The notes under the pieces were generated by a model, which ran no database searches, was not told where the DNA came from, and saw only the letters and a program-made list of their open reading frames with translations. Positions 7,575 to 12,724 of a DNA stretch of 12,724 nt are shown piece after piece. Both the position numbers and the translations under genes were made by a program. Within the stretch, counting starts at the first letter, position 1, and each line of letters starts with the position of its first letter. This stretch comes from a bacterium (GTDB lineage: Bacteria > B130-G9): positions 1-12,724 of the forward strand of contig JAGHCW010000063.1 in NCBI GenBank assembly GCA_021160245.1, given 5' to 3'.

Positions 7575-7845
7575 GCCATTCCAAGCGGTCATATAAGCAA
7601 GATGTTGCACTCCAGTTTTCATTTTCCCCTCATTAATAACCTAGAGCGATATGAATATGGAGACACATCCAAAGAAAGGCATTGAAAAGGTCATAAGGGA
7701 TAGCGTATTGTAGAAGTTAATATACAACATATTGCGTAAAGGCCAAGAGGTCTCGCTAGCTCGAGCCGGCGGCGTTAGGCTATGACGAGCTATTGGCTTT
7801 GGGTTGCGACAGGGCTTTAGCAAGGGATTTGGGGATGGGTTTACA
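7575..7845. other. Intergenic region before pheT
   Basis: No convincing gene lies here. A 20-codon frame (ATG 7651 to TAG 7713) has no good SD and no Phe codons, so it is not a classic phe attenuation leader. A weak promoter-like pair, TTGAAA (7682-7687) and TATTGT (7706-7711) with an 18-bp spacer, could drive pheT. No T-box core sequence was seen. The main structure is the hairpin at 7738-7800. Confidence 0.5.
7738..7800 (+). promoter_or_regulatory. Long imperfect hairpin in the pheT leader
   Basis: Three nested stems can form. AAAG(G)CCAA (7738-7746, one bulged G) pairs with TTGGCTTT (7793-7800). TAGCTCG (7757-7763) pairs with CGAGCTA (7786-7792). AGCC (7764-7767) pairs with GGCT (7778-7781) around a 10-nt loop. 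The total is 19 pairs, with a 10-nt bulge on the 5' side and a 4-nt bulge on the 3' side. No T-tract follows, so it is not an ordinary intrinsic terminator. It ends 45 nt before the pheT start, which suggests a regulatory leader or a processing site. Confidence 0.45.
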
Positions 7846-9975
7846 TTGAAGGTTACTACTAGTTGGCTCCACGAATATGTTGATTTCAGTCTTCCGATTG
7901 ATGAGCTTTGCGTTCGCCTGACGCAAGCGGGGCTAGAGGTTGAATCGTGTTACAATGAGGCCGAGGCAAAGCATGGGGACGAGCTTGTAGCTCTTTCTCA
8001 GCAATCGGGCTTTCCTCTTGATGACATGGTGCTAGACCTTGAGATCACTCCCAATAGACCCGATTGTCTGAGCATAGTAGGCATCGCGAGGGAGGTCTCA
8101 GTGATATGTGGGAAACCTTTTCTTCAGAAGAAGGTGAATATCGCCAATGCTGGTCCAGACGTAGCAACTGCAGCCACACTCCAGGTCATGGAGCCCCAAG
8201 CCTGTCCGAGATATATCGGAATCGTGATCTCAGGGATTGAGGTCGGTGAGTCCCCCACTTGGCTAAAACGGCGACTGATGGCGGTTGATCTCCGGCCGAT
8301 CAACAACGTCGTGGACATTAGCAACTATTTAATGATCGAGACGGGGCAGCCGCTGCATTGTTTTGATCTGGACAATCTCCAGGAACGAAAGGTGATTGTG
8401 CGCTTTGCCAGAGAGGGAGAACGGATAGTAACGCTCGATGAAGAGGAGAGAAAGCTCTCTCATGGGACTCTCGTTATTGCTGACGCTAAGCGTCCTGTTG
8501 CGATTGCCGGAGTGATGGGAGGCCTTTTGAGTGGAATAGGCGATTCCACAACGAATCTCTTCCTAGAATGCGCAGCTTTTGATGCGCCTTTGATAAGAAA
8601 GACCGCTCGAGCGATTTCTCTTCACACGGAATCATCCCACCGATTTGAACGAGGTGTCGATCTCAAGAGGGGCGAGCTCTGCTCGCAGATGGCGGCGGCA
8701 ATGATCGTTGAATGTTGCGGTGGCAGTATTTTACCTGGCGTTCTTGAGTCATGTCCTGAAAGGCAAGAGGCGAGTCGCATTTGGCTGCGGCCGGAATGGG
8801 TGAATGAAGTCCTTGGGACTAGCATTCCTGAGGCGAAGATGCACAAGATACTTCTTTCGCTTGGGTTTTCGATTTGCAGAGATGAGGATAGCTCCACCGG
8901 ACGGATGTGGGTGGAACCACCGTCCTTCAGGTTAGACGTTGTTGGCGAGGAGGACCTTGTTGAGGAGATAGCGAGAGTCCATGGCTTTGATGCGATAGAG
9001 CCTAGAATGCCCCGGACTCAGCTTAGTTCCGGTAGGTTGGATATAAGGTCTAAACTCCACAGGCGAATAAAGGGAACGCTAAAATCGATGGGCCTGTGTG
9101 AGGTTTTTACGCTCAGCCTGTTCGGGGATGATCTTCTGGACAAGTGTCGCATCCCGACCGAAGACAAGCTGCGCTCTGGTGTGAGATTGAAGAATCCCCT
9201 GAATGAGGACGAGGGCATATTGCGGACATTCCTGCTGCCCAGCGTCCTGAGCTGCGCCTCGCACAACGCGCGGCATAAGGCTCTGGACAGCTGGCTTTAT
9301 GGCCTCGGGCGCGTGTTTATTGACGAGGGTTCGAAGACGCCAGATGAGCAGATACGGCTTTCCGTGGTTATTCATGGGGAGCAAGCTCCGCCAAATTGGA
9401 CGACAGAAGCGCATGCGGCCTCGTTTTATCACATCAAGGGCATATTGGAGAGAATCGCCAGTGACATGGGTCTTGATGAGCCGAGTTTGACGCCTGCTGA
9501 TGTGCCATACGGGGTGTCCGGACAGTGCTTTGATCTAATTGTTGATTCTAAGCGACTTGGCCTTATGGGGAAACTACATCCTGATGTTTCAGCGGCCTTC
9601 GACCTTACTAGCGACTGCTATTTTGCCGAGCTATCGCTTGATATTATGATGCAGATGCAGGCTCCTCAGCGTGGCTACACTCGGTTTTCGCTCTTCCCAT
9701 CCGTGACTTTGGACCTCGCGATCACATTGAAGAAGGGCATATCACATGATCAAGTAGCGTCAGTTATACGTGAGATTGGGAAGGGGCTTGTTAAGGGCAT
9801 TACGCTTTTTGATCGATACGAGGGCAAGCAGATTCCGGCGGATAGGGTCGGCCTCGCTTTTTCGATCGTCTATGGAGCAGCCGATCGGACGCTTGTTGCA
9901 GCTGAGGCTCTTGAGCGACACCAAGCAATAATTGATGGTCTTTCAGAGCAATTGGGAGCTATTTTGAGGATATAG
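7846..9975 (+). CDS. pheT: Phenylalanyl-tRNA synthetase beta subunit
   Basis: The beta subunit of the alpha2-beta2 enzyme charges tRNA-Phe in the cytoplasm. TTG 7846 is chosen because it gives the family start (M-K-V-T-T-S-W-L-H-E-Y-V-D). The protein is 709 aa. ITPNRPDC is at 67-74, then RPINNVVDISNY and GQPLHCFD, and TESSHRFERGVD closes the B3/B4 region. The B5 domain spans about 312-385, with FRLDVVGEEDLVEEIARVHGFD near its end. The FDX-ACB anticodon-binding domain fills about 610-709 and ends GAILRI, a normal terminus. In typical bacterial PheT the TPNR-DC motif lies near residue 160. Here it lies at 67, so the EMAP/OB-fold tRNA-binding (B2) domain is missing. No pheS is next to it. The catalytic-like core is intact, so the gene looks functional. 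Confidence 0.95.
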   Translation: MKVTTSWLHEYVDFSLPIDELCVRLTQAGLEVESCYNEAEAKHGDELVALSQQSGFPLDDMVLDLEITPNRPDCLSIVGIAREVSVICGKPFLQKKVNIANAGPDVATAATLQVMEPQACPRYIGIVISGIEVGESPTWLKRRLMAVDLRPINNVVDISNYLMIETGQPLHCFDLDNLQERKVIVRFAREGERIVTLDEEERKLSHGTLVIADAKRPVAIAGVMGGLLSGIGDSTTNLFLECAAFDAPLIRKTARAISLHTESSHRFERGVDLKRGELCSQMAAAMIVECCGGSILPGVLESCPERQEASRIWLRPEWVNEVLGTSIPEAKMHKILLSLGFSICRDEDSSTGRMWVEPPSFRLDVVGEEDLVEEIARVHGFDAIEPRMPRTQLSSGRLDIRSKLHRRIKGTLKSMGLCEVFTLSLFGDDLLDKCRIPTEDKLRSGVRLKNPLNEDEGILRTFLLPSVLSCASHNARHKALDSWLYGLGRVFIDEGSKTPDEQIRLSVVIHGEQAPPNWTTEAHAASFYHIKGILERIASDMGLDEPSLTPADVPYGVSGQCFDLIVDSKRLGLMGKLHPDVSAAFDLTSDCYFAELSLDIMMQMQAPQRGYTRFSLFPSVTLDLAITLKKGISHDQVASVIREIGKGLVKGITLFDRYEGKQIPADRVGLAFSIVYGAADRTLVAAEALERHQAIIDGLSEQLGAILRI

Positions 9976-10042: not shown

Positions 10043-10071
10043 TTGACAGGGCTTGCGTTGATGCATACTAT
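10043..10071 (+). promoter_or_regulatory. Predicted sigma70-type promoter of the propeller gene or of a leader RNA
   Basis: A perfect TTGACA (10043-10048), a 17-bp spacer and TACTAT (10066-10071, 4 of 6 matches) form a good promoter. The start of transcription would be near 10078, leaving about 205 nt untranslated before ATG 10284. Confidence 0.65.
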
Positions 10072-10090
10072 TCTTACAGATGAGCATACT

Positions 10091-10259
10091 AATGGGTGGT
10101 TGGCTTTATGGCCACCATTTCCCATTCAGAGCCACAAAAGAGGCTCTGTTGGATGATTTTTGAGTACCGCGGGATCGTATGGCGATTATGTGTGATTCTC
10201 GCTTGTAAATAAAGGAACAGATTATTCTGAATACGATCTTGGCCTTCGCTTCGAACCAA
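10091..10259 (+). promoter_or_regulatory. Candidate structured leader RNA with four abutting elements
   Basis: Element A: AATGGG (10091-10096) pairs with CCCATT (10121-10126), with TGGT/ACCA and GGC/GCC stacked inside. Element B follows with no gap: CAGAGCC (10127-10133) pairs with GGCTCTG (10142-10148) around an 8-nt loop, and TTTTT comes 8 nt later. Element C: GATCGTAT (10173-10180) pairs with ATACGATC (10231-10238), enclosing GCGA/TCGC (10182-10185 with 10199-10202) and CAGA/TCTG (10218-10221 with 10226-10229) as a possible three-way junction. Element D follows with no gap: TTGG(CC)TTCG (10239-10248) pairs with CGAACCAA (10252-10259). The pairings are read directly; function and real folding are inferred. 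It could be a cis-regulatory leader, a small RNA, or partly a weak terminator at element B. Confidence 0.45.
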
Positions 10260-10283
10260 AAGCTCAATATAGGAGAATAAGGG

Positions 10284-12683
10284 ATGCGGGGACGTATTAT
10301 TGTTGTTGCAGCTGTGTTTTTGGCTTTAGGCGTTTTCTCAGTTGAGGGCGCGGAATGGCTGAACTACTCCCGTACATGCACGGTTCCACACGTTGCCATG
10401 CAGGGTGACAAGGTCTGGGCTAGTATAGATGGTGGAGGCGCGGCTTATATTGATTCTATGGGCAATGTTGCTTTTTATACGCCATCTGATGGCCTAATCC
10501 CGACCGAGGTTGCGGCACTTGCGTGCGACAGCCTGACAGTGTGGTTTGGGGCGGAAGGCGGAGTATGCTCTTTCAACGGCGAGATTTTCACGACCTACAC
10601 GGCTGAGAATAGCGGACTGTTGATAAACGATGTAACGGCTATCGCGATTGATGGAAGGTCGCTCGATAAATATATCGGCACAGAAAAGGGACTCTCAGTC
10701 TATGACGGTGTTGAGTGGACCTCCTACACCCCCTATAACTGCGATCTCGCCTCTCCTTATGTATCCGCGCTATTTGTGGATGAGGATGCTGATGAGGTCT
10801 ATGTTGGAACCGACTTCGGCCTGAGCGTTATGAACATAACGACAGGGCTGTGGCGCCAGTATAAGGTGGAGCATGGGATGGTCGCCAATAGAGTGTCCTG
10901 CATCACAAAGGATGACGACGGCGATATCTGGATCGGAACTTATCAGGGCGTGAGCCGATTCGATGGCGCCAACTGGTATTCATACACGGCCGGGAACGGG
11001 CGGCTTTGCTCGAACTATGTCAACGGAATCGCCGCCTCGTCCGACGGCTATATCTGGGTGGCAACCGACAAAGGTCTAGTCCGCATTGATGGCTCGATTA
11101 GCCTTTTTTATACCGTTGCGGAGCACGGCCCGCTTGGATTCACATCAGATAATGTCCTCTCCGTTACATGCGAGGCGTCAGGCAAAGTTTATTTCGGCAC
11201 CGATGTTGGGCTTTTTGTCTTTAACGGGAGTTTGTTTGGCTCTTATTTGTCTGCCGGACTTGCCAGTAACTTCATCAACTGCGTCACAATTGAGGATAGA
11301 ACCACCCGATGGATCGGTTCAGACGGAGCGGGCGCAAACAGGATGACAGCGAGCGCTCTCGATCATTTCGATAATCTCAATTCGGGGCTTGTTTCCAATT
11401 ATATCACCGACATAAGTTCGCACATCGAAGCTGGCAAGCAGTTCGAGTGGTTTGGGAATCGCGCCGGAGGATTAGGCCAATCGGGTTTATCCATCTTTGA
11501 CGGACTTGGGTGGGACGCGCCCGCCCCGGCGCTGCTCACCGAACCTTCTCGAATCATCATCGAATCTGACGAAGACGAGGTGACGATCGATAAGTGGATT
11601 TGTACCCCGAACGATGGTGTTTACAGAACCGATGAGACGGTTCCGGGCGCATTCGATCACTACATGCGGACCGGTGGAGACCTGCTCTCTGATGTTGTCC
11701 ATTCCATGGCAATTGATGATGAGCATCTGAAGTGGTTCGCTACGGGCGAGGGCGTGAGTATCTTTGACGATACGAGCATCCCGGTCACATGGTCAACCAT
11801 AACGACTGCGGACGGTCTCCCGAGCGATGACGTTCATTCAATAGTCTTCGGCGGAGATGATACAGTCTGGTTTGGAACCGACATGGGTGTCGCGGTTCGA
11901 CGGGACGATAGGTGGACTACCTATCAGCACATAGATACAGCCGCTCCCATAATCTCCGACGCCGTAGCCGCGATGGCTGTTGAGCAGATTGGCCCGACGT
12001 GTTTGCGTTGGTTCGCAACGGAAGGTGGCCTGTTGATGTTCAATGGCACTGATTGGTCGCTACTCAAGGAGGCTAACTCGAATCTGCCTTCTAACAACAT
12101 TAGAGACATAGCTATTGACACCGGTGGAAACAAATGGTTCTGCACGGCCGGCGGCGTGGCGATGACCGGGTCCGGCGCAATTGTCGATCCAGAAACCGCT
12201 TTCACTGTGTTCCACTCGGTGACTCCGGCAACGATCGCGTCTCTTCTGTCCGATGACGTGCGGGACGTCATGGTTGATCGCGATAACAATAAATGGTTTG
12301 CGACCGACAAGGGCGTTTCCGTCTATGATGACGCAGATTGGACTCACTACACGGTTGAGGATGACTCGCTTTGTTCAAATGACATTCGCGCACTTGCAGT
12401 TGACGGGATAGGGCGAGTATTCATCGGCACAGCCAATGGATTCTGCGTCGTTCAAGACGGAGTGGTCACTGCCGATGGTCCATATCTTGCCGGCGATGAC
12501 GTCAGATCGATTGTGATCGACCGCAACGGTATAGCCTGGATTGCGACCGCGCGCGGCGTTGTGAAGGCTACAGTAAGGCACGATGGCGCGAGTTTCGTCG
12601 TTTATGACCAGGCCACTACGCACGGCGGCCTGCCCTCTGATTGTATTTTAGACTTAAATATTGATAACGAATCCTACAGCTAG
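10284..12683 (+). CDS. Secreted multi-blade beta-propeller protein (Reg_prop type), probably truncated
   Basis: The start is ATG 10284 with AGGAGA 7 nt upstream. The 799-aa product opens with a signal peptide (R2/R4, hydrophobic 5-18, cleavage about 22-23), so it is exported. The rest is about 17 repeats of 40-50 residues, each with the pattern [SN]-x-x-V/I-x-x-I-x-x-D-x4-W-[FI]-[GA]-T-x-x-G-[VL], as in IWIGTYQGVSRFDG (215-228), KWFATDKGVSVYDD (670-683) and AWIATARGV (751-759). This is the two-component-regulator-propeller (Reg_prop) repeat. Seventeen blades would make two seven-bladed propellers and part of a third. No histidine kinase, membrane anchor or sorting domain follows. The protein stops inside blade 18: TAG takes the place of the conserved aromatic residue (codon 800), and the frame then stays open to the window end. 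The function is unknown; binding or surface scaffolding is possible. Confidence 0.85.
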   Translation: MRGRIIVVAAVFLALGVFSVEGAEWLNYSRTCTVPHVAMQGDKVWASIDGGGAAYIDSMGNVAFYTPSDGLIPTEVAALACDSLTVWFGAEGGVCSFNGEIFTTYTAENSGLLINDVTAIAIDGRSLDKYIGTEKGLSVYDGVEWTSYTPYNCDLASPYVSALFVDEDADEVYVGTDFGLSVMNITTGLWRQYKVEHGMVANRVSCITKDDDGDIWIGTYQGVSRFDGANWYSYTAGNGRLCSNYVNGIAASSDGYIWVATDKGLVRIDGSISLFYTVAEHGPLGFTSDNVLSVTCEASGKVYFGTDVGLFVFNGSLFGSYLSAGLASNFINCVTIEDRTTRWIGSDGAGANRMTASALDHFDNLNSGLVSNYITDISSHIEAGKQFEWFGNRAGGLGQSGLSIFDGLGWDAPAPALLTEPSRIIIESDEDEVTIDKWICTPNDGVYRTDETVPGAFDHYMRTGGDLLSDVVHSMAIDDEHLKWFATGEGVSIFDDTSIPVTWSTITTADGLPSDDVHSIVFGGDDTVWFGTDMGVAVRRDDRWTTYQHIDTAAPIISDAVAAMAVEQIGPTCLRWFATEGGLLMFNGTDWSLLKEANSNLPSNNIRDIAIDTGGNKWFCTAGGVAMTGSGAIVDPETAFTVFHSVTPATIASLLSDDVRDVMVDRDNNKWFATDKGVSVYDDADWTHYTVEDDSLCSNDIRALAVDGIGRVFIGTANGFCVVQDGVVTADGPYLAGDDVRSIVIDRNGIAWIATARGVVKATVRHDGASFVVYDQATTHGGLPSDCILDLNIDNESYS

Positions 12684-12724
12684 GCCACCACAATGATATA
12701 CAATTCCAACTCCATCAGGGACGA

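Follow-up and report, generated by a model that had tools for sequence, protein, structure and literature searches.

Hairpins in 5′ untranslated regions (UTRs) stabilise bacterial messages, among them those of ompA in Escherichia coli, recA in Acinetobacter baumannii and vacA in Helicobacter pylori (PMC7509114). Leaders can also carry structured standby sites (Espah Borujeni et al., PMC3936740) or be bound by CsrA, as in glgC and hag (PMC7652899), and in riboswitches the nucleotides of the pocket are usually conserved (PMC7266159). Here we analyse a leader between pheT and a gene for a putative secreted propeller protein, within a window of 12,724 nucleotides that constitutes the whole stretch of DNA under study (coordinates refer to the window, and all features lie on its forward strand). 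A first-pass annotation had drawn four structures in this leader, A to D, together with two segments complementary to the Shine–Dalgarno (SD) sequence, and had suggested that they might form a translational switch. Comparison with relatives separates these elements, and we propose an explanation in which the leader would act after transcription, through its 5′ hairpins and its translation start.

The locus and leader in four genomes

The phylum sample comprised four genomes, namely that of the window (G000, contig G000:C32) and three relatives (G001, G002 and G003), which belong to two other genera of its family, G001 and G003 being congeneric. The order of the locus is common to all four genomes and three genera: pheT, about 310 bp (308 nt in the window) and an orthologous Reg_prop propeller gene, with intergenic regions that align along their full length. 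The upstream gene encodes the beta chain of phenylalanyl-tRNA synthetase and carries four Pfam domains of that chain. The open reading frame (ORF) 3′ of the leader (10284–12683, ATG at 10284) combines a signal-peptide-like start with Reg_prop propeller repeats, and its orthologues in the relatives show 53–55% identity.

Two side observations concern the ends of these genes. In the region 7804–7860, comparison suggests that pheT starts at a TTG at 7846 (TTGAAGGTTAC) rather than at 7804; an invariant GGGGATGG precedes this TTG in all four genomes, and the pheT promoter region GATAGNGTAT is likewise conserved. At the other end, the propeller ORF of the window stops at 12681, close to the contig end (region 12660–12724), and contig G000:C86, read on its reverse strand, carries the protein on at its end from the same motif (LYIDNEF...). 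Because the ORFs of the relatives are about 1850 amino acids long and G000:C86 continues the protein, this stop is probably an assembly artefact of the contig end. More giant Reg_prop ORFs (about 900–2800 amino acids; L041, L042, L043 and L044) form a tandem cluster, which lies 3′ of the first propeller gene in G001:C141 and G002:C76 and is found on G000:C86 in the genome of the window.

A predicted sigma-70-type promoter, TTGACA-N17-TACTAT, occupies 10043–10071, with TTGACA at 10043–10048, TACTAT at 10066–10071 and a spacer of 17 nt. It matches 10 of 12 positions and is not rare alone, as shuffled sequence gives one such promoter on average; all three relatives have TTGACA-N17-TAGTAT at the corresponding position. 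Transcription is predicted to start at about 10078, 205 nt before the ATG, and the leaders of the four genomes are 205, 207, 206 and 206 nt in length. The dedicated promoter and 205-nt structured leader of the first-pass annotation are both in place in the window, and they are well supported by the conservation of promoter and leader length in the three relatives and by compensatory changes in hairpins A and B. Folding of 10078–10290, which had been suggested as a check, gave a graded result: the full leader has only a small advantage over shuffles (z −1.47, 14/200), the A+B segment a clear one (z −3.96) and the C segment a marginal one (z −1.72). The full leaders of G001 and G003 fold no better than shuffles.

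The leader is phylum-restricted and single-copy. Neither the window nor its relatives have a match in Rfam 15, at the gathering score or at E 5, and a covariance model of the leader, run on 290 genomes, recovered only the four known copies, with no paralogous leader in the four genomes. The viral contigs searched held no relative, and a search of the genome contigs returned only one distant propeller protein. Some candidates were rejected. One 32-nt stretch at G001:C63 that partly matched the covariance model (E 0.11) appears to be a chance hit. A conserved leader peptide was considered for a window ORF that begins ATGAGCATACTA and runs for 27 codons through A and B; comparison by eye found neither a corresponding start nor a corresponding frame in the relatives. 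No terminator-like site was present for an attenuator, and a tRNA/T-box link to pheT was rejected as well.

Hairpins A and B and the translation-start block

Hairpin A (10091–10126) pairs AATGGG (10091–10096) with CCCATT (10121–10126); it has an outer GGG/CCC stem, a 3′ bulge and an inner stem that is compensatorily replaced in the relatives. Hairpin B (10127–10148), in which CAGAGCC (10127–10133) pairs with GGCTCTG (10142–10148), abuts A at 10126/10127 as first described, and a shorter AGCC/GGCT core stands in its place in the relatives. Pairing in A+B is kept at a sequence identity of 34–55% between the window and the genera of the relatives; segment A by itself is 34–43% identical, no higher than the spacer 5′ of the promoter (38–50%), and folds alike. 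Across the four genomes, 88.6% of cells are paired in A+B compared with 77.1% in shuffles, and 9 of 20 pairs differ at both positions and still pair (alignment A2), a number reached by 1 of 500 shuffles; sliding the partners by one column abolishes this compensation signal. The consensus fold, a common two-hairpin structure, has an energy z of −5.9, which none of 300 column shuffles equalled (SCI P 0.027), and the mean MFE z is −5.7. Every lineage pair tested gave P of 0.03 or less, in shuffle tests that ignore kinship, and covariation power is low because there are four genomes to compare, two of them congeneric.

Hairpin A is well supported by these comparisons and hairpin B moderately, because G002, in which A can form (−16.2 kcal/mol), is predicted to prefer one longer rod over A+B, and stem B of G001 has one mismatch. 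The loops of both hairpins are not conserved although the stems covary. A and B are 5′-proximal hairpins kept in structure and not in sequence, as would be expected of a message stabiliser, with G002 ambiguous in this respect. Hairpin A starts about 13 nt from the predicted transcript start; the ideal distance between hairpin and 5′ end is shorter than this in an ompA-type stabiliser.

The translation-initiation block (10240–10294), which the first reading had left unnoticed, is the other conserved part of the leader. At 10269–10294, 25 of 26 columns are invariant in the four genomes (ATAGGAGAATA-N-GGGATGCGGGGACG); this run spans the SD sequence AGGAG (10271–10275, invariant in all four), the start codon and codons 2–4, and no other exact occurrence of the pattern was found. 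Start-block identity between genera is 78–90%, and no identical run in the propeller ORF is longer than ATGCGGGGACG. Among the 317 invariant residues of that ORF, the codon is kept in all four genomes for 20% (2 of 15 for Arg and 7 of 54 for Gly), and the start-block codons CGG and GGA are both kept despite this general drift. Conservation is much weaker at the starts of pheT, fliW and csrA, which served as controls. RNAalifold pairs an upstream TTTTCGC with GCGGGGA in codons 2–4. In the window, CTTCGC (10244–10249) can pair with GCGGGG (10286–10291), and CCTTCGC keeps most of the pairing through T to C changes; G003 loses one pair. The start-block fold does not outperform shuffles (z −0.9), so that it may be the sequence itself that is constrained.

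Comparison thus shows selection acting on the promoter, the leader length, A+B at the level of structure and the start block at the level of sequence. On this comparative evidence the leader is a genuine RNA control region, because its first two hairpins, its promoter and its ribosome-binding and start region are preserved across the phylum. How it might work is less certain. We regard as about an even call the explanation that the propeller gene has a cis-acting 5′ leader, confined to the phylum and present in single copy, which is transcribed from its own promoter and controls propeller expression after transcription. Hairpins A and B, near the 5′ end, would shield the mRNA from 5′-end-dependent decay of the RNase E/G type (RNase E/G is encoded in three of the four genomes) and would keep the 5′ part of the leader folded aside. 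The weakly structured middle would offer a ribosome standby area, and the invariant block from the SD sequence through the AUG to codons 2–4 would be the initiation site and set the initiation rate. The weak TTTTCGC:GCGGGGA pairing and the purine motifs would contribute to this rate, a trans factor may modulate it, and a ligand-driven switch would be unnecessary.

Control by CsrA would place the protein directly on the start block, with a CsrA dimer bound to GGAs at the SD sequence, start codon and codon 3 repressing translation and FliW relieving the repression. CsrA is encoded in all four genomes, above the family cut-off, with FliW adjacent in each, and the three GGA motifs (10272–10274, 10282–10284 and 10290–10292) are invariant and of fixed spacing, with the outer pair 18 nt apart. 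However, the first GGA lies in the invariant AGGAG, which is also simply a good SD sequence, and this overlap is undiscriminating, as strong SDs usually carry GGA. GGA is not enriched in the propeller leaders (P 0.14–0.74), and no conserved GGA-in-loop hairpin was found in them, upstream of or at the SD sequence, where shuffled leaders do equally well. One flagellin-leader family of the phylum (L052, L054 and L055) has a GGGC(AAGGAU)GCCC hairpin together with CACGGAGGA at the SD sequence, in agreement with the known CsrA site (PMC7652899); fliW and csrA adjoin each other elsewhere in the genome, away from those flagellin genes. Because these flagellin leaders show the canonical hairpin and CACGGAGGA, the propeller leader is without the hallmark that real targets of the phylum seem to carry. 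With that hairpin missing and the GGA count ordinary, CsrA control is possible and is not indicated beyond the SD-overlapping GGAs; we rate it rather unlikely as the explanation of the leader.

The middle of the leader

The switch that had been drawn consists of structure C as a three-way junction, hairpin D and two anti-SD words. The arms of C and D and both words are present in the window. Structure C (10173–10238) has an 8-bp stem, with arms GATCGTAT (10173–10180) and ATACGATC (10231–10238), that closes 50 nt; D (10239–10259) pairs TTGG (10239–10242) with CCAA (10256–10259); and the words are ATTCTC (10195–10200) and TTATTCT (10222–10228). None is kept in the relatives, which have no conserved counterpart of C and lack the arms of D. 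Both exact words are absent from all three, with weak SD complementarity near the columns of the first and other SD-complementary letters near those of the second. No consensus structure was found in columns 81–172 of the four genomes (z +1.3), and leaving out G003 reduces the consensus to zero pairs. Conservation in relatives, which had been proposed as a check on the switch, speaks for the promoter, the leader length and A+B, and against C, D and the exact anti-SD words. Predicted SD accessibility in full folds of the four genomes is 0.92, 0.49, 0.46 and 0.06, with no common state.

A translational riboswitch-like element, with C and the two anti-SD segments as its expression platform, is unlikely by our estimate. 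The window contains exact 6- and 7-nt complements of the SD region, and when duplex energy with the SD block is computed in a sliding profile, the two strongest peaks shared by the lineages (columns about 127 and about 155) fall near ATTCTC and TTATTCT (P 0.004 versus shifted profiles). In the relatives, moreover, the 5′ arm of A (TTGGG) can pair with GCYCAA before the SD sequence. Yet scrambled SD targets match the real one in 14% of trials (P 0.14), so the clustered complementarity may reflect no more than pyrimidine-rich patches. Among shuffled leaders, 27% match the SD block over 6 nt at least once and 6% over 7 nt, which bears out the original caution that six to seven matching bases can arise by chance. 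The remark that no known riboswitch core could be recognised also holds: no conserved loop core was seen and Rfam gave no match, and the four genomes share no conserved loop or junction nucleotides of a covarying aptamer fold, as a riboswitch would. Because the middle has no consensus fold, the words are confined to the window, scrambled targets behave similarly and SD accessibility varies, the on/off switch as drawn is not supported by the relatives and is left as a weak residual possibility.

The pairing between the 5′ arm of A (10091–10098) and GCYCAA (10262–10267) extends over 7, 6 and 9 bp in the relatives and over 5 bp, two of them G-U, in the window, and may be an alternative long-range pairing. 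It would also serve a broader reading, which we hold to be improbable: that the leader represents a new phylum-specific regulatory RNA class, in which A+B would act as a sensor for a protein or metabolite and switch the giant propeller protein, perhaps together with the downstream cluster, on and off at translation, through this pairing or through the two mid-leader anti-SD segments.

At the other extreme, the region could be an ordinary long 5′ UTR with fortuitous hairpins, of which the promoter and ribosome-binding site alone matter. C, D and the middle behave accordingly, as do the full-leader folds of G001 and G003, but the compensation and stability of A+B and the fixed leader length count against this account, which we find quite improbable. 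Pairing of an Hfq-assisted small RNA with the invariant SD/AUG/codon 2–4 block is decidedly improbable: Hfq is encoded in all four genomes and the block extends beyond coding need, but a conserved ribosome-binding site accounts for part of it.

Comparison with known leaders

Comparison shows which half of a hand-drawn RNA structure is real and which is accidental. What stands is a conserved structured mRNA leader that is absent from Rfam, is found only in one poorly sampled phylum and precedes the gene for a very large, apparently secreted propeller protein; 10091–10148 and 10269–10294 are concrete RNA segments for testing how such proteins are controlled.

With translational riboswitches, the leader shares its length, structure and potential anti-SD segments; it differs in lacking conserved ligand-pocket-like nucleotides, an expression platform clearly kept in the relatives and any Rfam match. 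It resembles CsrA-bound leaders in the GGAs over the SD sequence and in the presence of CsrA and FliW in the genomes, whereas the high-affinity GGA-loop hairpin upstream of the SD sequence, present in flagellin leaders of the same genomes, is missing from it. Leaders with standby sites are similarly long, and their hairpins likewise precede a stretch of little structure and the SD sequence, although here standby behaviour is read from the layout only. The ompA-type leaders differ in gene, phylum and sequence, and in the present case some 13 nt separate the hairpin from the predicted 5′ end; the likeness is that 5′-proximal hairpins of an mRNA for an envelope or secreted protein are kept in structure over sequence, with a strong SD sequence downstream.
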